DNA of 39,308 bases from Spirochaetales bacterium (GTDB lineage: Bacteria > Spirochaetota > Spirochaetia > SZUA-6 > JAFGRV01): NCBI GenBank assembly GCA_016934975.1, contig JAFGRV010000380.1:1-39308 (forward strand), given 5' to 3'. Numbering within the stretch: position 1 is the first letter of the stretch; every line of letters begins with the position of its first letter. The notes beneath the pieces are model-generated. The model was not told where the DNA came from. It was given only the letters and a program-made list of their open reading frames with translations, and made no database searches. A program made the position numbers and the translations under genes. Of this stretch, positions 7,860 to 37,903 are shown in pieces.

Positions 7860-9155
<1,296 letters not shown>

Positions 9156-9437
9156 AAATTTATCTAAAGTTAAATGATAGGAAAACCTATAATTTCCCCT
9201 GTGGAAAACTCCCAAAAAAACTGACAATTCCCTGTCATGTGAGCTTATGTTACAACACGAGGGCAAAATAATCAATAAGAAAAATTACCATATCACCCAA
9301 AGTGAACACTCACATCGTGTTTTTTTCCAATACCAAACCTTGCATTAACACCACATCCCGCTATCACCCAAAGGTATACCTTTTTTCATCCCTTTTACCC
9401 AATAGCGTTCCGGTCCTTGGTGTGTCATAGTATTCTC

Positions 9438-15729: not shown

Positions 15730-17919
15730 TTAAACTATCTCCACTTTTCCGGATTTATAAAATTCATCACCAAGCACTACTTCTGCGTTTGTATCACCAT
15801 CGTGGAAAAGAAGGGCATGGGAGACAGGCTGGAGTATTTTCTTTTCAATGAGCCGTTCAACACCTCGTGCTCCTGTTTTGTTCTTTTTCAGAAAGGAGAG
15901 TAGATAATCGCCTATTTTCTCATCATCGTATGTGAGGATAATATCCCGTTTTTTTAGCCGTTCGAGGGCCGTTTTGCACTTCAGGATGATAATTTCTTTA
16001 ATATGTTTATCATCAAGTGAATTAAAAAGGATTAATTCATCCAGCCGGGCAAGAAATTCCATGGGAAAATGATCAAGGAGTAAGTCGGTTATATCCGGTT
16101 TTGCGGCCGCTTGTTCAAAACCGACGGTTTGTTTTTTTAGATCTTCCAGGCGAAGGGCATTGGTCGTCAGGATAATGACACATTGTCTGCAATCAAGACG
16201 TTCACCTTTACTGCTCGATATTCTTCCGTTATCCAGGAGCCCGAGAAGAAGCTTGTGGACATCGGGGTGTGCTTTTTCTATTTCGTCGAAGAGGATGACT
16301 CCGCTCCCGGTAGTATGAAGCCAGTCCGTGAGGACCCCTTCTTTTTCGCTTCCCACATAACCTGCCGGAGACCCTATCAGCTTATTGATTGATCCGCCCT
16401 GATTATATTCCGCGAGATCCAGGAGGAGCAGGGAATTCCTTTTCCCGAAAAATACATTTGCTATCACTCTTGCCAGTTCCGTTTTCCCGATTCCCGACTG
16501 CCCGGCAAAGAGAAATGAACCGAGATTTTTTTCTTCCGGTCCGAAATCAAGGCGGCGGTGAATCAGGGTTGCGCATACTTTTTTTATCGGTTCATCCTGT
16601 CCGATTATCCATTTTTTTATTTCGGATTCGAGGTTGCGGAGTTCTTCCCGTATATCGCCGGTAAGGGAAGAGATCGGCCGCCCTGTCTGGCGGGAGAGGG
16701 TGTTTAACAACTCATCAATGGTAATGATATCTTTACCGGCACGTGACACATTCACACATGTCGAATCAAGGAGGTCCACGCTTTTGTCAGGCTGAAAGCG
16801 GGTCGGTAAATGGCGGTCTGTGAGGCGGATTGCTTCACGGATTACTCTTTCGGATATCTCGATGGAATGATGGCTGGTCAGGCTCCGGGCCTGGGCACGT
16901 ACCATTTTATAGGTGAGTTCTTCATCTGGTTCATCCAGGCGTATCTCCTGAAACCGCCGTGCTAATGCCGCATCCTGGTTTATATAGCGGTGAAATTCTT
17001 CGACTGTTGTGGCGCCGATGACACGAATTGACCCCCGTCCGAGAAAGGGTTTTAACAGATTCGCCGCGTCTGTTGTGACGCCTTCTGCTCTGCCCGCACC
17101 CCAGATAAGATGCATTTCATCTATAAAAAGAATCGCGGAATCAATCTCGGTAATAGTATCGATAACTGCGCTCATCCGTTCTTCAAAATCACCCCTGTAC
17201 TTTGTCCCGGCCACAAGCTTCCCCATGCTTACTTCAAATACTTTTACGCCGTTAAGACGGGGCGGAAGATTTTCTTCGGTAGCAAGATACTTAGCGAAGA
17301 GTTCGACTAATGCGGTTTTCCCGACACCTGCGGGGCCGGTAAGGGCGGGGTTTGCTTTTTGCTTCCGCAGGAGAACCTCCAGGAGTCTGTCTATTTCTTT
17401 CGGTCTGTTACAGAGTGAATCAAACTCGCCTTCGGCGGCCAGGGCGGTAAGATCCCGGCCATATTTAAGGAGCGGATTGGATATTTTTTTTACCTCAATA
17501 CCGTGAGCTGCTAAAATTCCGCTTTTCCCCTGCATCGCTTTATTTATATTTCTTTTTAAAGTATCGATGTTACAGCCTGACTGTTGTAATGTTTTATATA
17601 TTCTGTTCTCCGGGTTTTCGACGAGAAGCTTAAGCAGATGGGCGCCGTAAACAGGACCTTCGGTGGCAACTAATAGGCACGAAGTGAGTAAAGCATCATC
17701 CTCTTTGGAGGTTGTGTTTAAAAAAGGTTGTATGCTTTGTGAAAAATCTTCCAATGTCAGACCGGTTTCGTTGAATATTGCAGAAAGTTCCTTGTAAGGA
17801 TCGCTTTCCGCCCAACTGATGAGCATCGCGACAAGAGTAATGGGGGCACCGGGAAATCGTTTAATACATAGTTTTCTCAATTCGTACATGGTGATCATAC
17901 AAAGCTCCTTTTTCCTCAA
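15730..17919 (-). CDS. ClpA/ClpB-like double AAA+ ATPase
   Basis: Two Walker A motifs (GPAGVGKTALVE; GQSGIGKTELAR), 'GTKYRGDFEERM', 'AILFIDEMHLIWGAG', 'GSPAGYVGSEKEGVLTDWL', 'FDEIEKAHPDVHKLLLGLLDNGR'. Start may be the internal MITMYELRK. Confidence 0.92.
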   Translation of the reverse strand: MRKKELCMITMYELRKLCIKRFPGAPITLVAMLISWAESDPYKELSAIFNETGLTLEDFSQSIQPFLNTTSKEDDALLTSCLLVATEGPVYGAHLLKLLVENPENRIYKTLQQSGCNIDTLKRNINKAMQGKSGILAAHGIEVKKISNPLLKYGRDLTALAAEGEFDSLCNRPKEIDRLLEVLLRKQKANPALTGPAGVGKTALVELFAKYLATEENLPPRLNGVKVFEVSMGKLVAGTKYRGDFEERMSAVIDTITEIDSAILFIDEMHLIWGAGRAEGVTTDAANLLKPFLGRGSIRVIGATTVEEFHRYINQDAALARRFQEIRLDEPDEELTYKMVRAQARSLTSHHSIEISERVIREAIRLTDRHLPTRFQPDKSVDLLDSTCVNVSRAGKDIITIDELLNTLSRQTGRPISSLTGDIREELRNLESEIKKWIIGQDEPIKKVCATLIHRRLDFGPEEKNLGSFLFAGQSGIGKTELARVIANVFFGKRNSLLLLDLAEYNQGGSINKLIGSPAGYVGSEKEGVLTDWLHTTGSGVILFDEIEKAHPDVHKLLLGLLDNGRISSSKGERLDCRQCVIILTTNALRLEDLKKQTVGFEQAAAKPDITDLLLDHFPMEFLARLDELILFNSLDDKHIKEIIILKCKTALERLKKRDIILTYDDEKIGDYLLSFLKKNKTGARGVERLIEKKILQPVSHALLFHDGDTNAEVVLGDEFYKSGKVEIV

Positions 17920-20900
17920 TTATCCTCTATGAGTTTGGTTTTTATTCCGGTGACCGGCCGGTTGTTTGCTTTCTTGTGTACCAAAAATCTCGAATTCAAC
18001 CGTTTAATAACAGTGTCTCTGTTATTGTATAATTTTAAGTAATTTTCTCTTTCCGGATGGGTGTCATGTAACACCTCGGCGTTTTTCCCTTCCTGTTCAC
18101 ATTCAATAACATTGATAATATCGATTCTGTCTGTCCAGAATCTTCCGGAAGGCGCATTGTTATCCGGCGGAGTGGTCCAGAGAAATCCTTCATTAAGATT
18201 GTAATACGTCGCCCTCAGTTCGAAGGTATCAAGAGTCCAGAATTTTACTGTTCCGTCATAGCTGGAGGTTATGAGCAGATTTTCATCTTCGATAAGTGAA
18301 ACCCCGGATATCCAGCCAAGGTGTTCTTCGGTGAGGAGTTTTATACATTTCCCGGTATCACTATCCCAGACTGATACAGATCCGATATTACTTCCTGAAA
18401 TTATCCGGGTCCTGTCGACAGTCATCGCAAGGGCCGTAACATAACTTTCCGTCTTAATTATTTTAAAAGGGATACCTGTTCTTACATCCCATAGACGGAT
18501 AGTTTTATCCTTGCTCCCGGAGACAAGAAGCGTTTCATCCCAACTCAAGGTAATTTTACTCACACTCTCCGTATGTCCTTTAAAGGTGTTAAGAACCGTT
18601 CCCTTTTCTACATTCCATTCCTTTATAGTCTTATCTTCACTGCAGGTGTAAAGCTTTTCTTCGTTTCTGCTTAATTTAAGATCATACACTGCTCCTTTGT
18701 GACCTTTATATGTCGAGGAGCACATAATATAATTTGTATTCCACCTGCGGGCATAATGATCCGAAGATGCAGTATAAAGGTAATTACCTTTCGAATTAAG
18801 GAGCAAGGAATTTACTGTTTCAGTATGTTCAAACCAGCGAAGTTGTTTGCCGGTTTTCGCGTCTAAAAGATTTGTCAGGACACATCTTCCTCCAGCGACA
18901 ATACGTTGCCCCGAAAGACTCATATACACGGCGTAGGTAGCAGACATACAATATCTGTATTCTTTGGTGACCCGTGCTTCCCGGAGATCGATTTTTTTTG
19001 CGCCAAACTCCCAGCAGCCTATAAGTACTTCATGTGTGTAGGGATTTACGTGCATGGCGCATACACTGTTGGCGAATCCTGTAAATTCCCGGGCCAGAAC
19101 ACCGTTTTTAACAAACCACATCCGCATTGAATATTTTCCGGATGTAAAAATATATTTTCCCTGCCGATCGAATCGTGCGGAATAAAGCTGATAATCATTG
19201 CCGTTTATTTCTTTTAAAAGTTTTCCTGTTTCATTGTTCCAAATCCGGATAACTTTATCATTTCCTCCGGACATAGTCATTTTGTTATTGTCGCTTATAT
19301 CAACAGAATAAATAGTATGTGAACACCCGTCATATTCCCGAAGGAGTTTTTCCGTCTCTATTTCCCATAGCCGGACTTTAAGATCACATCCCCCGGTAAT
19401 AAGATATTTGTTATCTTTACTAATCCGGACGGCTTCCACCCAATCGGTATGTTCACGAAAAACATGCAGACATATTCCCTTATTCACATCCCAAATCCGG
19501 GCCGTATTATCCGCGCTTCCGGTTGCCAGGAGAGTACCATCATCACTTAAATCCAGGGTAAAGACGGTATTATCATGCCCCCAGAAGTTCCGGATAAGAT
19601 CTCCTGTTTCAAAATCATATATCCGTATGTTTTCGTAGAGCTCCCGGCAGCAGATGATAATTGACTTCATATCCGGGGTAATACAGATACCATGGATATT
19701 ATCTGCTTTTGTATTTATTGTCCTGATATTTTTTCCGGTTATCAGATCCCATAGAACAATATAACCATTATCACTTCCGGTAATGAGGAACTTATTATCT
19801 TTTGTTATGTAAAGGGAAAGGATTCCATTTCCCCTGGTTTTACGTTGTACTAACTTATAACGGAGGTTGTTTTGTTGTAAATCCCATACGTTGACGATTC
19901 CATCCCATCCACTTGTAACAAGGATTGTATTGTCCCGGCTCAAGCTCAGAGCAGAGACATTCTTTGAATGTCCTTTAAACTCGGATATACAATTTCCCGA
20001 TTCGAGGTCCACAATTCCGACACGGTGTTCAGATCCGAATACAACGTTTTTATTATCTCTGCTAAATTGTAATGCGTTTACTCCCCAGGTTGGTCCGCCA
20101 AGTGTATAGGCATGAAAAGGATCGGCTATAGACCATAACTTGATAATTCCATCAAGATCTCCGGTAAGGAGGGTTTTTTCATCCGGGCTTAAGGTGATTG
20201 TCATAATCCAGTTTTTATGCCCCTCATATTTCATAATACAGGTACTCGATGCTATATCCCATCTCATGGCAGTACCGTCTCTCCCTCCCGAGAATAGTTC
20301 CGTACCCGCTTTATTTATATGAAGAGAAAATATTTCACCATTATGTCCCTGAATCGTTTGGGGATTACTCCTGTTCTTTGTGTCCCATTTTTTAATGAAG
20401 GAATCTTCACTTCCGGTAAAAAGATATCGATCATCCGGTGTAAGAACAACCACACGTACGGCTTTCTTATGACCGCTGAATATGCGTGTACATTTTCCGG
20501 AATCGAGACTCCATTTCCTTGCCGTTTTATCCTCACTGCCGGAATAAATAGTTCTTCCGTCTGAGCTTGTAATTATTGATCTGATCCTCGCCGTATGGCC
20601 TCTCATGATTTTTAAGCATTTCCCGGTTTCAAGTTCCCAGACCCGGATTGTTTTGTCCCAACTTCCGGTTATGAGAATCTTATCATCCGGGGTGACAGCG
20701 AGAGCCCGTACCGTATCGGTATGTCCTACAAAGACTTTTAAACACCGTCCGGTTGCTATATCCCACAGCCGGGCTGTGTTGTCATCACTTACCGACACAA
20801 TTTTCGTATTATCATGAGTGATGAATAATTCCCTGATCCAATCCGTATGTCCTCCCACATTATGGGTTTTATCCCGTACTTTTATATTGCAGAGATCAAA

Positions 20901-20999
20901 GATGTTCTGTTGTACATCGGACAGGTGATTTCCCGTAGCTTCATGGAGAGAAATATTTTTGTCTGATTCATCTGATGTTAAAGATTTATCTTTACTCAT
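17916..20999 (-). CDS. Large WD40-repeat protein (1027 aa)
   Basis: Many WD40 units ('GHTDTVRALAVTPDDKILITGSWDKTIRVWELETGKCLKI' and similar) across nearly the whole ORF. Stop overlaps the Clp-like start by 4 nt. Confidence 0.95.
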   Translation of the reverse strand: MSKDKSLTSDESDKNISLHEATGNHLSDVQQNIFDLCNIKVRDKTHNVGGHTDWIRELFITHDNTKIVSVSDDNTARLWDIATGRCLKVFVGHTDTVRALAVTPDDKILITGSWDKTIRVWELETGKCLKIMRGHTARIRSIITSSDGRTIYSGSEDKTARKWSLDSGKCTRIFSGHKKAVRVVVLTPDDRYLFTGSEDSFIKKWDTKNRSNPQTIQGHNGEIFSLHINKAGTELFSGGRDGTAMRWDIASSTCIMKYEGHKNWIMTITLSPDEKTLLTGDLDGIIKLWSIADPFHAYTLGGPTWGVNALQFSRDNKNVVFGSEHRVGIVDLESGNCISEFKGHSKNVSALSLSRDNTILVTSGWDGIVNVWDLQQNNLRYKLVQRKTRGNGILSLYITKDNKFLITGSDNGYIVLWDLITGKNIRTINTKADNIHGICITPDMKSIIICCRELYENIRIYDFETGDLIRNFWGHDNTVFTLDLSDDGTLLATGSADNTARIWDVNKGICLHVFREHTDWVEAVRISKDNKYLITGGCDLKVRLWEIETEKLLREYDGCSHTIYSVDISDNNKMTMSGGNDKVIRIWNNETGKLLKEINGNDYQLYSARFDRQGKYIFTSGKYSMRMWFVKNGVLAREFTGFANSVCAMHVNPYTHEVLIGCWEFGAKKIDLREARVTKEYRYCMSATYAVYMSLSGQRIVAGGRCVLTNLLDAKTGKQLRWFEHTETVNSLLLNSKGNYLYTASSDHYARRWNTNYIMCSSTYKGHKGAVYDLKLSRNEEKLYTCSEDKTIKEWNVEKGTVLNTFKGHTESVSKITLSWDETLLVSGSKDKTIRLWDVRTGIPFKIIKTESYVTALAMTVDRTRIISGSNIGSVSVWDSDTGKCIKLLTEEHLGWISGVSLIEDENLLITSSYDGTVKFWTLDTFELRATYYNLNEGFLWTTPPDNNAPSGRFWTDRIDIINVIECEQEGKNAEVLHDTHPERENYLKLYNNRDTVIKRLNSRFLVHKKANNRPVTGIKTKLIEDN

Positions 21000-28421: not shown

Positions 28422-28964
28422 TTGCATATGTTTTTTAAATGGATAGCTAAATTTATAATAGCCATTAATGCCAATACTAAACCGGGTCAGCTATCCGGTG
28501 GTATTGCCTGTGCCATGGTTCTCTCTTTTTTACCGGTAAACCTGTTCTGGTTCACTATATTCTTCATCATTTTCTTTATTAAAATTAATACAGGTGTTAT
28601 GTTTATTTTTCTGGGAATTTTCGGATTACTGAGCCCGTTATTGACAGACGCATTCAATACTATCGGTTTTACCCTCGCCTACTTACCGGGGATTTATGAC
28701 TTTTTAATGTGGATTAATAATATCCCTGTTATCTCACTCATGGGGATAGATTACACCCTGACTCTCGGGGGACTGGCCTGTGGTATCGTACTCTTTGTCC
28801 CTGTTTATCTGCTTTTTAATCTTCTTATTAAAATGTATAGAAAGCTGGTGAGAGACAGACTTGCAAAGACTAAAATAATCAAAAGACTGCTTTTGATTCC
28901 GGTTATTGCAAAACTCGCAGAAGCAGTCCGTGCTGCTTATACTATGTATGTGACATCGGTTTAA
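28422..28964 (+). CDS. TIGR03546-like (DUF2062-like) membrane protein
   Basis: 180 aa with 'NTKPGQLSGGIACAMVLSFLPVNLFWF' and several TM segments; immediately precedes the TIGR03545-like gene. Start may be the ATG at 28428. Confidence 0.65.
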   Translation: MHMFFKWIAKFIIAINANTKPGQLSGGIACAMVLSFLPVNLFWFTIFFIIFFIKINTGVMFIFLGIFGLLSPLLTDAFNTIGFTLAYLPGIYDFLMWINNIPVISLMGIDYTLTLGGLACGIVLFVPVYLLFNLLIKMYRKLVRDRLAKTKIIKRLLLIPVIAKLAEAVRAAYTMYVTSV

Positions 28965-28979
28965 ACAAGGAGTTATGGA

Positions 28980-31043
28980 ATGGGAAAGAAACTACCGAAA
29001 CCACCGAAATTATTTTTAAAGCAGTATAAAGAGAAGGATTTTAATGCAAAAATTCTCTCCAGGACATTCATGGAAAAGGATAAAGAGTTACTTCTTTCTC
29101 TTTTTAATAAAGATAAAGAGAATATCTATTCCATAAAGAGCGGCTATTCAAAGGATGATGTAAAACAACTTAAAATCATAGCCAAAGCAATTAAGAAAAA
29201 TACCGGTGTCGTTCAAAAAGGCAAGTTGATTGTTTTTCTCGTCATAATCGGGGCTGCCCTCCTCTTTAACTTTATTTTTAAGGATTCACTTTTACGCGAT
29301 GCCCTTGAAAAGGGTATGGTTGCGGTTTTTCAGGCAAAATCGGCAGTATCCGGGCTCTCATTCGATATTTTGGGGGCTGATATATCAATTTCAGGATGTG
29401 TGATCGGGGACAGTACAAAACCATTTAAGAATCTTATTCAACTTGGAAAAACGGAAATCGATCTGAATATGACGGAACTCCTTAAAGGGAAATTTGTTGT
29501 TACCAATATAGAATGCCAGGACATACAATTCGGAACTCCCCGGACGGACTCGGCACGTATTGCTCAACAGGGGACTTCTCCGGAACCCGGGGAGGAACAG
29601 GGAACCCCGGAAGAAAGTAAAGAAGAGTTTATTCCGGATCTCAAGGGAATAGATACCGATGCCATCATCGAAAAAGAAATGTCAAATCTTAAAAGCCCGG
29701 GAAAAATTACGGAAATAAATGAAACCCTCGGGACAATGACAAATAAATGGAGCGATACTGTAACCGCATATGAGAAAGATATAGAAGAGCTTGGTCAATC
29801 AATAGAAGCAGTAAAAAAAATAGATATAAAGAAGATAAAAACTATTCCCGATGCGGAAAAAGCATATACGACAATTAATTCGGCAGCAAAAAAAGCAACG
29901 AAATTTAAAAATGCAATCACACAAACTCAGAGTGAGATAAAAAAAGATCTCGCATATGTGGAAGCAGAATCAAAACAAATCGGGGCATCCATAGAAAATG
30001 ATTATAATTATCTCCTTTCTTTTGTGAAAGCCCCGGAACAGGGAGCAAAACGGATTTTTTCTTCCATTGCGGAGGATTTTCTGAAAGCACAATGTGGTGA
30101 ATTTTATACCTATGGTATGAAAGGTCTGGATGTTATCAAGAATCTGGATTTTGGCAAGAAAAAAAAGGAGAAAAAGGAAAAGGCTCCTCCGGGAGAGGGA
30201 TATAAAATAGAGTTTCCGGGAAATGCATATCCGAATTTTCTCATCGAAAAAGCCTCTTTTTCAATCGGGGATACGGCAAGTACCGATTATATGTCAGTCC
30301 GGTTAGAAAATATCTCAAGTGCACCGGAGCTCACTCACAAACCATCGACGGCCCAGGTCTTTTTTAAAGCCGGAACTCAGGAGACTTCATTTGACGGATC
30401 CGTTGATATCCGGAAGGAGAGCGAAGAAATGCTTTCGCTTACGTTTAAGACAAGCAACTATCCCCTTGACTTGTCATCCGGACTCGAACTTCTTGGAATC
30501 AGGCAGTATAGCTCGGATGCTACTTTTTCAACGGAATTTAAAATTCTAAAAGAAAATAAAACTCTTGGTAATATTTTTTTATCGTTAAAAAATATTTCTC
30601 TTAGCCTTGTGGATGAAAAGAATGAAATCAGCAGGAATATAAAAGAAATCCTGACACAAGCACAAGAGGTCACCATAGAAGCAGGATATTCGGTAAAGGA
30701 TGATGATTCAATTGCGATAAATGCTTCCAGTAATATCGATAAACTAATAGCCGACCGCGTCGGCAAGATGATAGAAGAATTAATCCGGGATGCAAAAACG
30801 ATGCTTGTGAATAAATTAGATTCATTACTGGAAGAATCATTAAAGAAAAATAAAACCTTATATTCGGCATTTACGGAAATTAAAAGTTTGTTAGATGGTG
30901 ATGTGAAGGATGTTGATGGATTTCAGGCAGTAATCGACGGCAAGTTTAAAGCTCTGGAGGCAAAGAAAAAGCAAATCCTGAAAGAGATAGAGGATAAAGC
31001 GAAAGATACTGTTAAAGACCTGATTCCTAAAATCGGATTATAA
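28980..31043 (+). CDS. TIGR03545-like protein
   Basis: 687 aa, single N-terminal TM, long coiled-coil and AsmA/LPS-transport-like beta-rich regions; paired with the previous gene. Confidence 0.65.
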   Translation: MGKKLPKPPKLFLKQYKEKDFNAKILSRTFMEKDKELLLSLFNKDKENIYSIKSGYSKDDVKQLKIIAKAIKKNTGVVQKGKLIVFLVIIGAALLFNFIFKDSLLRDALEKGMVAVFQAKSAVSGLSFDILGADISISGCVIGDSTKPFKNLIQLGKTEIDLNMTELLKGKFVVTNIECQDIQFGTPRTDSARIAQQGTSPEPGEEQGTPEESKEEFIPDLKGIDTDAIIEKEMSNLKSPGKITEINETLGTMTNKWSDTVTAYEKDIEELGQSIEAVKKIDIKKIKTIPDAEKAYTTINSAAKKATKFKNAITQTQSEIKKDLAYVEAESKQIGASIENDYNYLLSFVKAPEQGAKRIFSSIAEDFLKAQCGEFYTYGMKGLDVIKNLDFGKKKKEKKEKAPPGEGYKIEFPGNAYPNFLIEKASFSIGDTASTDYMSVRLENISSAPELTHKPSTAQVFFKAGTQETSFDGSVDIRKESEEMLSLTFKTSNYPLDLSSGLELLGIRQYSSDATFSTEFKILKENKTLGNIFLSLKNISLSLVDEKNEISRNIKEILTQAQEVTIEAGYSVKDDDSIAINASSNIDKLIADRVGKMIEELIRDAKTMLVNKLDSLLEESLKKNKTLYSAFTEIKSLLDGDVKDVDGFQAVIDGKFKALEAKKKQILKEIEDKAKDTVKDLIPKIGL

Positions 31044-31060
31044 TAGAATGGAGACGATGT

Positions 31061-32599
31061 GTGAGTGATTATGATGGAATTCCCTGTGATGCCCATGACT
31101 ATGAATTGCTGAAAAAATTGGAAGAAAAAACGGGAAAACAATTTCCTGTTGCGGACTCTCTCTCTCAATGGCAGGAAGCACGCTTTGAAAAGGGGGTTGT
31201 TATCAGGGATGGTAAAGTAATTGCTTTGGATCTTTCATATAAAGCTCTGCGAACCTTGCCGGAAGCAGTAATGGAACTTACCAGCCTTATTGCACTTGAT
31301 CTAAAAGGAAATACATTTAAAAACACTCCTCATAATATAGGTGTTTTAAAATGCTTAAAATACTTAAGCTTAAGTAATACGGGAATAAAAACATTTCCCC
31401 GCACCCTCCTTGAACTTGTCCATTTACATGAACTGGAATTATCGGGTAATGAACAATTACAAAGTTTGCCAAAGGACATCGAACTCCTTGCTGATCTTCG
31501 AATTCTTAATATCAGCTTTTGCGGGATTTTATCTTTACCTGCGGGGTTTGTGAAATTAAAAAACCTTACTTCTTTTTATGGCGGCGGTAATAAAATGACA
31601 TCTCTTCCGGAAGAAATCGGAGATCTTGAAAACCTTGAACATCTTGATCTTAAGGAAAATAAACTTACGATGTTGCCGGAAAGTATATCCATGCTTTCTC
31701 ATCTTCGTGTTCTTGATTTATCACAGAATAATTTTTCTGCATTCCCCCAATCCGTGACAAAATGCGGAAGTTTAATTAAATTGGGATTTGCCGCAAACCA
31801 GGTTAAAAATATTCCGGATTCAATAGGTGATCTTAATAATTTGGAATATCTTAATGTGACTGATTGTGAACTCCTGTCTTTACCGGATTCAATAAAAAGA
31901 CTTGAAAAATTAAAAGAATTATATATTTCCTGGAATAAATTCGAAGACCTCCCCCCCATTATCGGGGAGCTCGTTCATCTTGTAAAATTGGATGCCAGCA
32001 ATTGTTTTATTTCTTTTCTTCCTCCTTCCTTCTGCAATCTTACCGAGCTCAAACATCTGAATCTGCTTAACAATAACCTTGAAATTTTTCCGGAAATTAT
32101 TTTTTCCCTGCATCATTTGGAAAAACTGAACATGATGAGTAATCATATTGTATCCCTTCCTGAAAAGATAAACAGTCTGTCACATCTTAAGGAACTTAAT
32201 CTGGAGGATAATGCTCTTACGGAGCTCCCGGAATCTATCTGTGAATTATCCGAACTTAAAAATTTGATACTTTCTTATAATAAACTCCGGAAAGTACCGC
32301 CGGGTTTTTCAAATATTGATACCCTCTATACTCTGGAACTTGACGGCAATGAATGGACGGATTTTTATAAAAACCATATTATACGTGAGACAACGGCACT
32401 TACTCTCATGCAACTTGAACGTTTAAATGAGTTTATATCAACTCTTATTGAAAAGATAGAACAGAGCCAGCCTTTGGATGATTTTGACAGAGCATATCCG
32501 TATTACCACGACTATAAAGATATTCTCACCATAAAATGCAGAGAGTACGATAATGCAACGTCGAAGGAAGTCTTTTCGATTTTGTCATCCTTAGCTTAA
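31061..32599 (+). CDS. Leucine-rich repeat protein
   Basis: GTG start; many ~23-aa LRR units ('LPESICELSELKNLILSYNKLRKVPPGFSNIDTLYTLELDGNEW'). Confidence 0.92.
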   Translation: MSDYDGIPCDAHDYELLKKLEEKTGKQFPVADSLSQWQEARFEKGVVIRDGKVIALDLSYKALRTLPEAVMELTSLIALDLKGNTFKNTPHNIGVLKCLKYLSLSNTGIKTFPRTLLELVHLHELELSGNEQLQSLPKDIELLADLRILNISFCGILSLPAGFVKLKNLTSFYGGGNKMTSLPEEIGDLENLEHLDLKENKLTMLPESISMLSHLRVLDLSQNNFSAFPQSVTKCGSLIKLGFAANQVKNIPDSIGDLNNLEYLNVTDCELLSLPDSIKRLEKLKELYISWNKFEDLPPIIGELVHLVKLDASNCFISFLPPSFCNLTELKHLNLLNNNLEIFPEIIFSLHHLEKLNMMSNHIVSLPEKINSLSHLKELNLEDNALTELPESICELSELKNLILSYNKLRKVPPGFSNIDTLYTLELDGNEWTDFYKNHIIRETTALTLMQLERLNEFISTLIEKIEQSQPLDDFDRAYPYYHDYKDILTIKCREYDNATSKEVFSILSSLA

Positions 32600-33519
32600 A
32601 AGACATATATTCCCCGGAAGGCCTCGAAGGTATTGACAGCGGCACCAAGGAGTTCTTCTTTGAGACAAATCTCATCGCAGAGCATCATCCTGTGATACCC
32701 GATATCGTAGAGCCATGCAAGCTGAAGCAGGTCCGCACATGCGGGTACCGGTTTATTTACAAGCGAAAGCAGCATTCTGGAACCTGCGAATGCTTCTGGG
32801 TCTCTGTTGATAATGAGTTTTAAAGCGGCCATCATATGGTGGGGTTTGTCTATCTCCACATAGAGGTCCCCGCAGGCAGCCATAAGGATGAGATCCGGAT
32901 CTTTTTTAAACTCTGTTGCGACATAATCCAGCCCTTTTTTATTCTCGATTTTTGCGACAATTGTACCGTCTCCAACATGTTCACGAAACTCGTCTATGTC
33001 AGATGCTTTTTCCACATATGAAAGACACCATTTGCTGAATCCCGCTTGTTTTGCTTTACTGATTTTTTCAATTTCATAATCGAGTAATACAGGACCCGAA
33101 ACATCAAGGCTCGGATGCCGAATGTGGATGGATTCGCCCGGATAGACATTATATTCCGGCCCGCCCTCAAAAATAAGGTGGCGTTTATCCGCCACCTTGA
33201 TACATAATGCATGGTCTTCCCCCCCTTTAAAGAGTATGGGTACCGGTGTCTTCACCGTTATAGGGTGATTAAGGGTGAGTTCCAGATGATCCGGGTATGA
33301 CATCACATCCGTTACCCGTAATTGTTTACCTTTTATATCAAATAGAAAGGGCACGGGATTATCGATTGTTTTTAGAATATTCAGGTCTGCGTCAAGTTCC
33401 TGAGTATGTATCATCGCACTATTGAGTCTGATGCCGGCAAGGCGGTCATCAATGGCAAATCGGCTGAAATGAGGAAATGTCGGCCAGAGGGAAACGAATA
33501 ATTCACACGTGTTCATCAT
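32596..33519 (-). CDS. Pyruvate-kinase-like PEP-binding TIM-barrel protein (short, divergent)
   Basis: 'PFLFDIKGKQLRV', 'GPVLLDYEIEKISKAKQAGFSKWCLSYVEKASDIDEFREHVGDGTIVAKIENKKGLDYV', 'GDLYVEI' parallel pyruvate kinase core motifs. No obvious C-terminal domain; 307 aa. Confidence 0.65.
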   Translation of the reverse strand: MMNTCELFVSLWPTFPHFSRFAIDDRLAGIRLNSAMIHTQELDADLNILKTIDNPVPFLFDIKGKQLRVTDVMSYPDHLELTLNHPITVKTPVPILFKGGEDHALCIKVADKRHLIFEGGPEYNVYPGESIHIRHPSLDVSGPVLLDYEIEKISKAKQAGFSKWCLSYVEKASDIDEFREHVGDGTIVAKIENKKGLDYVATEFKKDPDLILMAACGDLYVEIDKPHHMMAALKLIINRDPEAFAGSRMLLSLVNKPVPACADLLQLAWLYDIGYHRMMLCDEICLKEELLGAAVNTFEAFRGIYVF

Positions 33520-33531
33520 ATATACCTGCTG

Positions 33532-35199
33532 TCATTTCTTGCTTTTTTTTGAAGGTGATTTCTTCTTTGGAGTACTCGTATCCTTCCTGGTTGCTGTTTT
33601 CTCTTTTTTGGAAGCGGCTGCGGTTTTCTTCGTTCGGGCTGGCGTTTTCTTTGCATCAGTTGTTGTTTTTTTCGTTGCGGTGGTTTTCTTTGAAGCAGCC
33701 GTTGTTTTTTTCGTCCCGGCAGTCTTATTTGCATCAGTTGTCGTTTTCTTCGTCCCTGCCGTCTTATTTGGAGCAGCCGTTGTTTTCTTCGTTGCGGTGG
33801 TTTTCTTTGAAGGAGCCGTTGTTTTCTTCGTGTCTGCCGTCTTCTTGGAAGCAGCCGTTGTTTTTTTCGTCCCGGCAGTCTTCTTTGCATCAGTTGTCGT
33901 TTTCTTCGTTGCGGTGGTTTTCTTTGAAGCAGTCGTTGTTTTCTTCGTGCCGGCCGTCTTCTTTGAAGGAGCCGTTGTTTTCTTCGTGCCGGCCGTCTTC
34001 TTTGAAGGAGCCGTTGTTTTCTTCGTGCCGGCCACAACTTTCTTGGAAGTATCTGTGGTTTTCTTCCTCCCGGGTGCCGCCTTCCTGGCAGCAGTCGTGG
34101 TCTTCTTTGTCCCGGCTGAAACCTTCCCGGAAACATCCGTGGGTTTTTTGTCTTCCGGAGGAGCATCAATAAGTTTCTTCATACTTGTCGTACCTGTTTT
34201 GCCGGGAGTTTTGATTCCCTTTGAGATAAGTGGTTTCGATGTTTTGGTGGTACTCTTCGTCGTGGTTGTTACGGATTTAGCCGATGTCGTATCTTTTGAA
34301 TCCGGTGAAGAAATCCCGAGGATCGTGTGAAGACCTTTCATCGCTGTTTTTACCTGGTCCGGTTTCTGGCGCTGAGTGATCTCCTCCTGAAAATATTTTA
34401 TCTTGCCTGTTTCTTTGGCAAGAATACCGAAGATAACATCGACAATTCGTTCGGCATTGGGAAGAAAAGCCATATGATCTTCTCCCAGGACATCCGCCCA
34501 TTGTTTATGGATTTTCATATCGGCGGAACTCATTTTGTCACCGCCTGTTTTGGAATATGGCTGACGTATGCAGTAGACCGCGAATTTTTGTTGTAATGCC
34601 CGGAGAACATCGGCATAACTCGTTCTCTTTTCGAGGTTTGTCCGTGTCCAGCGCTTTGCCTGGGCAGTATCGACAAATTCATATAATCCCTCATCACCGA
34701 TAAAAATAATAATCGGATTAAGAGCATTGGGCATTTTGACATGATTTGCGTAGTAGAGAGCCCCAAGTTCGTATGTCTCCATGCTCTGGCCCCCCCCGCC
34801 TCCTTCAATTATGAGTTCTTCCAGCTCTTTTTTCAGATCAAGGCCTTTTACGAAAGGACGTACCTGCAGAGGATAATTATCCGAATATGCATCGCCGATG
34901 GCTGCAAAACTGATCTCCAGATCATCTCCAAGATATTCTTTTCCTTCCAGATCGAGATAGGGGCATTTGGAAAAGATGGTTGCCGGGGATTCTCCCATTG
35001 AACCGGTGACATCACACGCGACAACCAGCGGTGCCTTACTTTCCGTAACTAATTCCACCGGAACAAGTTTATCCGGATTAACACTTTTTTTTACCGCATC
35101 CGAATAACTGCGGCCGACATGAATATCATATTTTTGCTTCGCGGATTTAAAATCATGTCCTTTCCATGGTCCCGGATCCCAATCACCTGCTTCTGACAT
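33532..35199 (-). CDS. vWA-domain-like protein with Lys/Thr/Ala-rich repeat tail
   Basis: 'PLVVACDVTGSMGESPATIF' (MIDAS-like DxTxS), 'IIIFIGDEGLYEFVDTAQA'. C-terminal ~200 aa are (GTKKTTAPSKKTA)-type repeats. Confidence 0.8.
   Translation of the reverse strand: MSEAGDWDPGPWKGHDFKSAKQKYDIHVGRSYSDAVKKSVNPDKLVPVELVTESKAPLVVACDVTGSMGESPATIFSKCPYLDLEGKEYLGDDLEISFAAIGDAYSDNYPLQVRPFVKGLDLKKELEELIIEGGGGGQSMETYELGALYYANHVKMPNALNPIIIFIGDEGLYEFVDTAQAKRWTRTNLEKRTSYADVLRALQQKFAVYCIRQPYSKTGGDKMSSADMKIHKQWADVLGEDHMAFLPNAERIVDVIFGILAKETGKIKYFQEEITQRQKPDQVKTAMKGLHTILGISSPDSKDTTSAKSVTTTTKSTTKTSKPLISKGIKTPGKTGTTSMKKLIDAPPEDKKPTDVSGKVSAGTKKTTTAARKAAPGRKKTTDTSKKVVAGTKKTTAPSKKTAGTKKTTAPSKKTAGTKKTTTASKKTTATKKTTTDAKKTAGTKKTTAASKKTADTKKTTAPSKKTTATKKTTAAPNKTAGTKKTTTDANKTAGTKKTTAASKKTTATKKTTTDAKKTPARTKKTAAASKKEKTATRKDTSTPKKKSPSKKSKK
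33590..34180. repeat. Imperfect 39-bp tandem repeats encoding the 13-aa KKTTAPSKKTAGT-like tail
   Basis: e.g. gccggccgtcttctttgaaggagccgttgttttcttcgt repeated in tandem near 33950-34030, with degenerate copies either side. Confidence 0.85.
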
Positions 35200-35282
35200 A
35201 GCTTCCTCCTAAAAAATAAAATTTTACTTGAATTGAAAGCAAAAATCTTTAATTATATTGATTTCTGCAATAGCTCCTGCTT

Positions 35283-36290
35283 CTAAAAATTTGGAATTGG
35301 TTTCATCTCCGACCGCCGTCGTCCGAAAAGTTTCAGCCGTAAATCGGCAATTGAATCGGTAAAATCTTCAATTTCCCATCCCGGGCGTGAAAGCACATCC
35401 CGTACAAGGAACCTCCTTAGAAACGAACAAAGCTCATCAGGCACTGTTTCAGGTACTTCCTTTGTTGCCACATCACCGCCCAGTGCATAAATCATGGTCA
35501 TGGCAAGACTGTAAAAATCCGACCGGGGAATGAGAACATTCCCGGCCATCTGTTCCGGTGAGGCATAATAGGGTGTGTAGCCGATGTTTTTTGCATCGCT
35601 TTTAGGCCGGATCATGGCGAGTCCGTAATCCACAAGTACAACCGTATGACTTGACGGCTGCATTATAATATTCTGGGGTTTAACATCCCCGTGAACGACG
35701 CCATGATAATGAAGGTATTTTAAGATATTCAGAGTCCGCTCCATGACCCAGCAGACATGTTCGGGGTCAAGACGGGTGTTTTTTTCAATAATTTTTGCAA
35801 GGGTGGGACCGGGAATATAACTCATGACAATCGCGTAGCTCCCGTCATCCAGCCGCACAAGGTCCCTGATTGCGGGAATCCCGAAGTGCCTGAGATCCCA
35901 GATAGCCCGGGCTTCATCCATAAGTATTTCCGCGTCCTGGGGGGAAATATTTATTCCATGTTTGATGCATACCGGGGTTTTAAGTTTGATATGTTCTCCC
36001 CTGTATGTGCGTCCGAATCCTCCTTCCGCGATAAGTTCAAGTACCCGGAAACCCCCGATATCTGTCTCTTCAAGATCGTTTCGTTCTTTATCATAGGCCT
36101 CCCGCTTTTTTTTATCCAGGAGGATTTCTTTTGCATTATTAATCACTTTCGCGATTTTTTGGTCACCATCTGTTTTATCAGGATGATATTCCTGAATAAG
36201 TACTTTATAAGCCGCATTAATAACTTCCGGTCTGGCCCTGGGGCTTACTTCGAGGATATCATATAGATTACCGGAAAGATCATCTCCCAT
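35283..36290 (-). CDS. J-domain - Ser/Thr protein kinase fusion
   Basis: N-terminal J domain 'LYDILEVSPRARPEVINAAYKVLIQEYHPDKTDGDQKIAKVINNAKEILLDKKKREAYD'; kinase 'IAEGGFGRTYRGEH', 'VVHGDVKPQNIIM', 'VLVDYGLAM', 'YYASPEQ', 'DFYSLAMTM'. Confidence 0.92.
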   Translation of the reverse strand: MGDDLSGNLYDILEVSPRARPEVINAAYKVLIQEYHPDKTDGDQKIAKVINNAKEILLDKKKREAYDKERNDLEETDIGGFRVLELIAEGGFGRTYRGEHIKLKTPVCIKHGINISPQDAEILMDEARAIWDLRHFGIPAIRDLVRLDDGSYAIVMSYIPGPTLAKIIEKNTRLDPEHVCWVMERTLNILKYLHYHGVVHGDVKPQNIIMQPSSHTVVLVDYGLAMIRPKSDAKNIGYTPYYASPEQMAGNVLIPRSDFYSLAMTMIYALGGDVATKEVPETVPDELCSFLRRFLVRDVLSRPGWEIEDFTDSIADLRLKLFGRRRSEMKPIPNF

Positions 36291-36469
36291 TATAATTCCT
36301 TTCTTCCTGTCCGTGTTTTGTGAAATAAATGAGTAACAAATTAAAATTTAATGCTACCATTAAAATTATAGTAAATCTTGCGGTATTTTCAAGTGAATCT
36401 ATTTTCAATTTGATATTATTACAGGTGTGGTACTGCCACATTTTTTATTTATGTGAAACTGATTTTATT

Positions 36470-37903
36470 TCATTTTTTATCTGCCGGCATAGCTCTATAT
36501 ATAGAAAACGTTTTTGCATATAAGTCATGTGGTTTTGTGTATTCCTGTTTTTTCCTGATTTCCGATAATAGAAATTTTATTCTCCCGATAGCGATACTTT
36601 TTTCACCTGCCTTCAGATCTGCTTCAGGTCTCACGGAAAGGTTTTTTACCTTGAGTTTTCCTTCCGGATATATGAGAGAGAAGGTCTCTTCGTTGTCCCC
36701 TTTCAGGTGTCTGTCAATAAAATGGGCAAGTTCAATAAAAAATTCATCGTTAAGGATAAAATCGCCTTTTCGTACCTTCTCATAGATGAAAAAAAGACCA
36801 CGGGATGTACTCTGGCTGTGGGCTTTAAAATCATCAACCCGTTCAAAATCGGTCCGTGTGTCCCGCTTGAGTGTGCCGATAGTCGTTGAAAGGGAGAGCA
36901 GCCTTTTCCGGATGGCAGCTATGGCCGGTTCCCCGGTATCAATCCCGATCCATCTTCTTTTTAGTTTTTCAGCGACAGCGAGGGTTGTCCCTGATCCGGC
37001 AAAGGCATCGAGAACAATGTCTCCTTTGCCGGAAGAAGCTCTTATAATACGTTCAAGGAGTTTCTCGGGTTTTTGGGTCGGGTAATGACCGGAGCTCCCG
37101 CGCTCAGGATCTTTTTGCTGCAAATGACTTATATCATCCCACACATCATCGGGTGTGAGGCGGGTGTCCTCATAATAGGTGTATTCTTTATTTCCCGAAT
37201 TTATAGACCAATACACCCTGCCGTCGGGATCAACATTCCGCTTCATATTATTTCTTTTTTGTCTTCCCCAGGGTAATCCGATTTCATGTTGATGAAAAAC
37301 CGCTTTTTTTCCTTTTTTATAGAAATAGAGAGCGGCATGTTTCCGGGCATAATAGGTTTCCGGTCTTCCCCCGGAGGAATAATACCAGATACACTCATTA
37401 AGAAAATTTTCCGGGCCGAAAACTTCATCCATGATTATTTTGATATAATGACCGAATCTCCAGTCTATATGTAGATAAATAGAGCCGTTATCAGCAAGAA
37501 TTTCTTTTAACAATATAAGTCGTATCCGTAAAAACTCAAGAAATGCGGCGCCGGTCATCGTGTCTTTATATGCCTTTTGATTCTGTTGTTTAAATTCCTT
37601 TTTTGTCGCAAAGGGCGGATCAATATAGATAAGGGTTATCCTGTTTTTTGTCATGAGACGATCCCGGTTTTGCTGGTCATCATAGATTGTTTTTAAAACA
37701 GAGAGGTTGTCCCCGTGGATGAGCATATTTGCCCATGAATCATCAAAAGTGTTTTCGCCGTGAAACTCCTCGATTTTTTTAAGGAGAGCCGGGGGAGTCG
37801 TGTTGATAATGTTTTCTTTTGATAATTTGCCGGAATAAACTAATTCATATTCTCCGTTTGCTGCAATACCGATAAGCATATCATTTATCATAAGAAAAAC
37901 CAT
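36470..37903 (-). CDS. Beta-class DNA methyltransferase (adenine- or N4-cytosine-specific)
   Basis: Motif IV 'LIYIDPPFAT' precedes motif I 'VLDAFAGSGTTLAVAE'; 'HYPTQKPEKLLERII'. Confidence 0.92.
   Translation of the reverse strand: MVFLMINDMLIGIAANGEYELVYSGKLSKENIINTTPPALLKKIEEFHGENTFDDSWANMLIHGDNLSVLKTIYDDQQNRDRLMTKNRITLIYIDPPFATKKEFKQQNQKAYKDTMTGAAFLEFLRIRLILLKEILADNGSIYLHIDWRFGHYIKIIMDEVFGPENFLNECIWYYSSGGRPETYYARKHAALYFYKKGKKAVFHQHEIGLPWGRQKRNNMKRNVDPDGRVYWSINSGNKEYTYYEDTRLTPDDVWDDISHLQQKDPERGSSGHYPTQKPEKLLERIIRASSGKGDIVLDAFAGSGTTLAVAEKLKRRWIGIDTGEPAIAAIRKRLLSLSTTIGTLKRDTRTDFERVDDFKAHSQSTSRGLFFIYEKVRKGDFILNDEFFIELAHFIDRHLKGDNEETFSLIYPEGKLKVKNLSVRPEADLKAGEKSIAIGRIKFLLSEIRKKQEYTKPHDLYAKTFSIYRAMPADKK

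Follow-up and report, generated by a model that had tools for sequence, protein, structure and literature searches.

A conserved cassette of a J-domain kinase, a vWA-like protein and a pyruvate-kinase-like barrel in Spirochaetales bacteria and a large phage

The three-gene cassette

The window analysed here is a stretch of 39,308 nucleotides from a Spirochaetales bacterium (assembly GCA_016934975.1, contig JAFGRV010000380.1), and the subject of this study is a cassette of three genes on its minus strand. Gene 1 (35283-36290) encodes a serine/threonine (Ser/Thr) kinase of 335 amino acids (aa) with a J domain, gene 2 (33532-35199) encodes a von Willebrand factor A (vWA)-like protein of 555 aa with a basic tail, and gene 3 (32596-33519) encodes a barrel protein of 307 aa, which resembles the A and B domains of pyruvate kinase (PK) and lacks the PK C domain. 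An initial annotation, made from the sequence alone, had given these open reading frames (ORFs) with gaps of 83 and 12 bp, and all of them are present as described.

To describe the conservation of the cassette, compared genomes are given G labels and loci L labels, L050 being the cassette region of phage LR745208. It turned out that the vWA gene exists in exactly 3 of the 61 related genomes (G000, G001 and G003), and full-length orthologues of the J-kinase and the barrel have the same distribution, the three genes standing side by side in identical order. G003 belongs to another genus, and the genes on both sides of its cassette differ from those in G000 and G001, which have in common a DNA methylase gene upstream; thus the shared unit is the three genes. 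The uncultured phage LR745208 (485 kb) also carries the J-kinase, vWA and barrel genes consecutively (L050 4932-5966, 6001-6963 and 6981-7895), with identities to the window proteins of 45%, 40% and 45%, respectively. The trees of the kinase, the vWA and the barrel agree on the relations they share, in which G000 and G001 group together, followed by G003 and then the phage, and G061 and the other families fall outside. The neighbourhood conservation that the initial annotation had proposed to check is observed, its refuting condition of genes not conserved together does not hold, and it is firmly supported that the three genes are one real conserved unit.

The methylase gene (36470-37903, minus strand; N6_N4_Mtase in Pfam) adjoins the cassette on the same strand. 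As it lies beside the G001 cassette and not beside the G003 or phage copies, it was rejected as a core component and is probably not part of the cassette proper. Upstream of gene 1, the best sigma-70-like promoter (36365-36392, minus strand) matches the consensus at 11 of 12 positions; this is a consensus match only, from a scan that returned 19 sites where 12.8 are expected by chance. Near the phage cassette, a Thg1-like reverse polymerase gene was recognised by eye (L050 9398-10291).

The three cassette proteins

The J domain of gene 1 covers aa 8-67 (36090-36269, minus strand) and matches Pfam DnaJ above cut-off (E 5.9e-15), with the HPD motif intact at aa 36-38, as the initial annotation had read it. 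It is followed by the protein kinase domain at aa 82-273 (35472-36047, minus strand; Pfam Pkinase E 4.7e-29, above cut-off), and the C-terminus extends about 60 aa past this match. In the alignment the catalytic residues look intact, including the lysine K110, E126, HGDVKPQN at 200-207 with the Asp of the catalytic loop, and DYG at 221 with the metal-binding Asp. The identity of gene 1 to its orthologues is 85% in G001, 72% in G003 and 45% in phage LR745208. Among 16 kinases and pseudokinases of the family compared, 12 keep HPD at aa 33-59, and several of these proteins have a degraded catalytic loop. The kinases look active in the cassettes with the barrel as the only enzyme, namely the window relatives, the phage and G061 (HGDVKPQN, HGDIKPQN, HRDVKPAN); the kinases of the cassettes with a PurA-like gene, described below, show a degraded catalytic loop (HGNIEP, HGAITP and others). 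In this small sample the pattern suggests that J-domain function may be more widely conserved than kinase activity.

Gene 2 has no match in Pfam or NCBIfam, and a vWA profile searched against PDB sequences found none either. Its putative vWA domain (about aa 55-267; 34399-35037, minus strand) contains a motif DxTxS (63-67) like that of a metal-ion-dependent adhesion site, in which D, T and S are invariant among nine diverged homologues, and a GDE motif (168-170) that is invariant among the same number. The protein matches phrog_2971, a PHROG of unassigned function (E 5e-21). The AlphaFold2 (AF2) model of gene 2 was built from a three-row alignment and has low confidence, with a predicted local distance difference test (pLDDT) value of 47 and a predicted template modelling score of 0.54; its top 13 PDB matches in Foldseek are all structures containing vWA or I domains, with weak scores (best E 1.6e-3). 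We assign the domain to the vWA fold because the two motifs, phrog_2971 and these weak structural matches of a low-confidence model point the same way. The C-terminal tail (33535-34287, minus strand) is rich in Lys and Thr and consists mainly of a 39-bp tandem repeat in about 12 copies (33643-34116). It is shorter in G001, almost gone in G003 and missing from the phage vWA. The idea that this Thr-rich tail is a conserved substrate of the kinase was weakened and then rejected, since phosphorylation of a lineage-specific, non-conserved repeat cannot be the function of the family.

The reading of gene 3 as a PK-like barrel holds, as Pfam PK is matched above cut-off (E 6.2e-11). In a profile-profile comparison of the barrel family with E. 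coli PykF and canonical PKs, the probability is 98.8% over 312 columns with about 20% identity, and the alignment spans the A and B domains. Seven PykF residues (R32, N34, D66, R73, K220, E222 and D246) are retained in the barrel and T278 is replaced by Ser; the roles of these residues follow from general knowledge of PK. The phage barrel retains Arg at the position of PykF R244. A canonical PK is present separately in all five genomes of the barrel family (f1), and the idea that the barrel serves as the organism's sole PK was rejected for that reason. An AF2 model of the barrel (three-row alignment, pLDDT 39) was set aside. Besides the cassette copies, there are stand-alone barrel paralogues that adjoin msrA and lie apart from any kinase or vWA gene (L061 4928-5884 in G000 and L064 5825-6793 in G002), and they may have a separate role. 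A terminator-like hairpin lies in frame within the barrel gene (33175-33198, minus strand; 9 pairs, 6 of them G-C, followed by ATTTTTG), which is probably a chance occurrence.

The wider cassette family and neighbouring genes

The triplet in the phage and a larger family of cassettes are beyond what the initial annotation could see. When the barrel profile was run over 298 Spirochaetota genomes, a second set of cassettes was found in G061, G125, G274 and G234. G061 has a kinase without J domain, the vWA, the barrel and a gene of 157 aa, and G125, whose contig begins just before the vWA, has the vWA, the barrel and the 157-aa gene. This gene is conserved directly after the barrel (L060 6056-6529 in G061, L055 2061-2534 in G125) and has no convincing Pfam match. 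In G274 and G234 the barrel is followed by a PurA-like gene.

For the vWA, the profile found 12 carriers among 395 Spirochaetota genomes, so the distribution of the cassette in this phylum is sporadic. The order kinase-vWA-PurA is found in G231, G265, G161 and G207, the order vWA-PurA in G197, G381 and G223; G425 has the whole set of four in a row (kinase-vWA-barrel-PurA). In G234 the contig ends after the vWA, and the barrel and the PurA-like gene sit at the end of a different contig. Wherever the contig continues past the vWA, which is the case at 13 Spirochaetota loci with those of G001 and G003 counted, a barrel or PurA-like gene comes next downstream. The kinase lies directly upstream at nine loci, 3.6 kb upstream in G234, and was not found at three; in G125 the contig begins just before the vWA. 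The canonical order of the family is (J-)kinase, vWA, PK-like barrel and PurA-like enzyme, and most lineages retain only one of the two enzymes.

Outside Spirochaetota, kinase-vWA-PurA cassettes were found on plasmids of Rhodococcus opacus, R. jostii RHA1, Tsukamurella, Agrobacterium vitis, Acetobacter and Variovorax, as well as in the mycobacteriophages Tonenili and ArcherS7 (one small gene between in the latter). A vWA-PurA pair with no kinase detected is carried by the Methylorubrum extorquens AM1 megaplasmid, one Rhizobium phage and one Vibrio phage. By tblastn, vWA relatives occur in 208 phage records, nearly all of which are Mycobacterium phages. Neighbours of the phage and plasmid relatives were inspected in the named records, and the phage copies recorded are a minimum number. 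A NUDIX or NrtR-like gene stands beside some cassette copies. In Rhizobium phage RHph_Y65, phosphoribosyltransferase-like and nicotinamide mononucleotide adenylyltransferase/NUDIX genes, which suggest nicotinamide adenine dinucleotide (NAD) salvage, lie a few genes upstream of vWA-PurA (L095 70-1745).

A 100/100 branch separates the PurA-like proteins from the housekeeping PurA of the genomes they come from, and a canonical PurA is also present in every Spirochaetota carrier examined. The PurA-like proteins retain GDxGKG and the catalytic His, while in most of them the substrate loop is changed from NAGH to QAAH or QAGH (GGxQAAH/QAGH versus GGxNAGHT). Because both the barrel and the PurA-like protein have diverged residues, and housekeeping PK and PurA are present separately, both resemble specialised forms of enzymes from central metabolism.

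Several neighbouring genes are recorded as observations on their own. The G061 cassette is flanked on one side by DpnII-like methylase/restriction genes (L060 658-3214) and on the other by a pair resembling MoxR-like AAA and vWA-metallopeptidase proteins (L060 6779-11100), both assigned by eye. In the window, an ORF at 7860-9275 (minus strand) has a long aspartate run and a C-terminal J-like segment with HPD. At 15730-20999 (minus strand), a ClpA/ClpB-like double AAA protein is encoded directly downstream of a WD40-repeat protein of 1027 aa, with a 4-bp overlap, which is possibly a second chaperone unit. Two adjacent genes at 28422-31043 (plus strand) belong to the TIGR03546 and TIGR03545 families and have no assigned function.

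Proposed function and comparison with known systems

We propose that an Hsp70-linked regulatory pair, the J-kinase and the vWA protein, controls a dedicated enzyme that would use phosphoenolpyruvate (PEP) and/or purine nucleotides, and that the set is exchanged among bacteria, plasmids and phages. Building on the gene content and order, the co-occurrence, the family relations and the residue conservation observed, we give this reading a probability of about one half. The J domain would recruit the Hsp70 (DnaK) of the cell, and the vWA site would bind a partner protein or a peptide. Together, possibly as a complex, the J-kinase and the vWA protein would then switch on, assemble or hold back the enzyme encoded downstream, with phosphorylation taking part wherever the kinase is active, as it is predicted to be in the window. 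The barrel would bind Mg-PEP, and the PurA-like enzyme would use guanosine triphosphate (GTP) on a purine-like substrate. The enzyme is thereby expected to alter or make a nucleotide-type metabolite that stands apart from the housekeeping pathways, which could benefit the bacteria, plasmids and phages that carry it. The PurA-like partner in related cassettes points to nucleotide metabolism, and the NUDIX or NrtR-like and NAD-salvage neighbours are counted in favour of the proposal as well.

Several observations weigh against this proposal. In the window barrel Ala and Ile stand at the potassium-ligand positions S36 and T67, respectively, and PykF R244 corresponds to Cys in the three Spirochaetales barrels, so that PK activity itself may be lost. 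The window cassette has no PurA-like gene, and the nucleotide link is therefore made via its relatives only. No kinase was found beside the vWA in G197, G381 and G223 or beside the vWA-PurA pairs of the Rhizobium and Vibrio phages. Pfam J-domain scores are marginal in several pseudokinases, the kinase of G061 lacks the J domain, and family f67 has a hydrophobic N-terminus in its place. Since the J domain or the kinase is missing in some copies, neither Hsp70 recruitment nor phosphorylation is universal.

As another explanation, the cassette might be a conflict module between phages and hosts or mobile elements, in which the J-kinase and vWA protein of bacteria and plasmids sense infection through unfolded or foreign proteins and turn on the enzyme, which then depletes or alters nucleotides or PEP, and the phage copies interfere with that process or with rival phages. 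Copies in four phage groups and on many megaplasmids, the scattered occurrence in Spirochaetota, the DNA methylase beside the window and G001 cassettes together with the restriction-modification genes beside G061, and a kinase domain whose greatest similarity in PADLOC is to Mad6 and PD-T4-6 are consistent with it. However, the vWA and the barrel are not modelled in PADLOC and the kinase matches are generic to the fold, nothing in the cassette is obviously a toxic effector, whether nuclease, membrane protein or other, its neighbours vary, and the copies in mycobacteriophages seem to be a stable part of their genus. A conflict role as such is plausible from the carriers and from the restriction/methylase, NUDIX/NrtR and NAD-salvage neighbours; the module in the form just described is a tentative explanation, which we consider rather unlikely. 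Equally doubtful is a more specific extension of our own proposal, namely a new class of Hsp70-linked cassettes in bacteria, megaplasmids and large phages. In these, PK-like and/or PurA-like enzymes that have taken on new functions would be under the control of a J-domain (pseudo)kinase and a vWA protein and would make a dedicated nucleotide-derived metabolite for competition between phage and host or between elements.

A housekeeping unit for quality control or stress, in which the J-kinase and vWA protein simply help to fold a barrel serving as spare PK without special signalling, is improbable. The full-length A and B domains with most PEP/Mg residues, the link to Hsp70 that a J domain implies and the stand-alone paralogues near msrA in two f1 genomes would fit it, but a canonical PK already exists in every f1 genome, an unrelated PurA-like enzyme fills the enzyme slot in many lineages, and the cassette is present in phages and plasmids. 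More improbable still is a variant of TerY-P phospho-signalling with the barrel replacing a Ter-associated biosynthetic TIM barrel. A vWA protein, a Ser/Thr kinase and a metabolic barrel side by side resemble the logic of Ter systems. For the vWA, comparison with the metal site of TerY-like proteins (DxSxS...T...D) gave a divided picture, gene 2 having invariant DxTxS and GDE motifs and no match to a vWA family model. The TerY-P triad consists of a vWA protein, a PP2C phosphatase and a kinase with a zinc ribbon (PMC11090510). No PP2C phosphatase was seen among the neighbours in the window (by Pfam), G001, G003 or the phage, and Pfam found neither zinc ribbon nor OB-fold on the gene 1 kinase. 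With both the phosphatase and the zinc ribbon absent, membership was rejected. From the suggestion of a new chaperone-linked module in the initial annotation, the conserved unit, the J domain and the PK-like barrel are thus upheld, and the kinship with TerY-P falls away.

Relatives of the cassette occur in the cultured laboratory strains Rhodococcus jostii RHA1 and Methylorubrum extorquens AM1, and well-studied mycobacteriophages carry them too, with the vWA labelled a hypothetical protein there. A function is thus open to direct testing. If the enzymes do make a new nucleotide-type molecule, a metabolite pathway would be added to the biology of phages and plasmids.

Compared with known systems, the cassette shares with TerY-P the vWA and Ser/Thr kinase genes side by side and the mobile, conflict-linked settings (PMC11090510); it differs in the N-terminal J domain of its kinase and in the PK-like or PurA-like enzyme directly downstream of the vWA. 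With the MoxR-vWA ternary conflict systems (PMC7159879) it shares a vWA as likely peptide-binding co-chaperone, a small operon and a chaperone link. However, this link is the J domain (Hsp70), an enzyme slot takes the place of variable effector domains, and the cassette contains no MoxR AAA+ ATPase; a MoxR-like/vWA pair was seen near just a single distant copy, that of G061. The barrel is like PK (PF00224) in the A and B domains and in the PEP/Mg residues R32, K220, E222 and D246, and unlike it in the missing C-terminal regulatory domain, the incomplete potassium site and the gene position beside a vWA. For the PurA-like partner of the sister cassettes, the known enzymes taken for comparison are adenylosuccinate synthetase (PurA) and phage PurZ; the partner has the GDxGKG and catalytic His motifs, and is set apart from housekeeping PurA by its separate branch and altered substrate loop. 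The kinase domain of gene 1 resembles the defence kinases Mad6 and PD-T4-6 in PADLOC (E 1e-37), but the similarity covers the common kinase fold and the other MADS-type part nearby is an unspecific DNA methylase only; a catalogued defence system, MADS or other, was rejected on account of these generic matches. A survey of jumbo phages (PMC7824862), in the passages searched, mentions DnaJ cochaperones and a MoxR-vWA pair and not this cassette. No published description of the combination was found in the open-access literature. In conclusion, as far as this literature goes, the cassette is rated as a new kind by its composition, which joins a J domain for Hsp70 docking to a kinase that is in some copies a pseudokinase, and both to a vWA module and two metabolic enzymes that look repurposed, across Spirochaetota, Actinomycetota, Proteobacteria and several groups of large phages.

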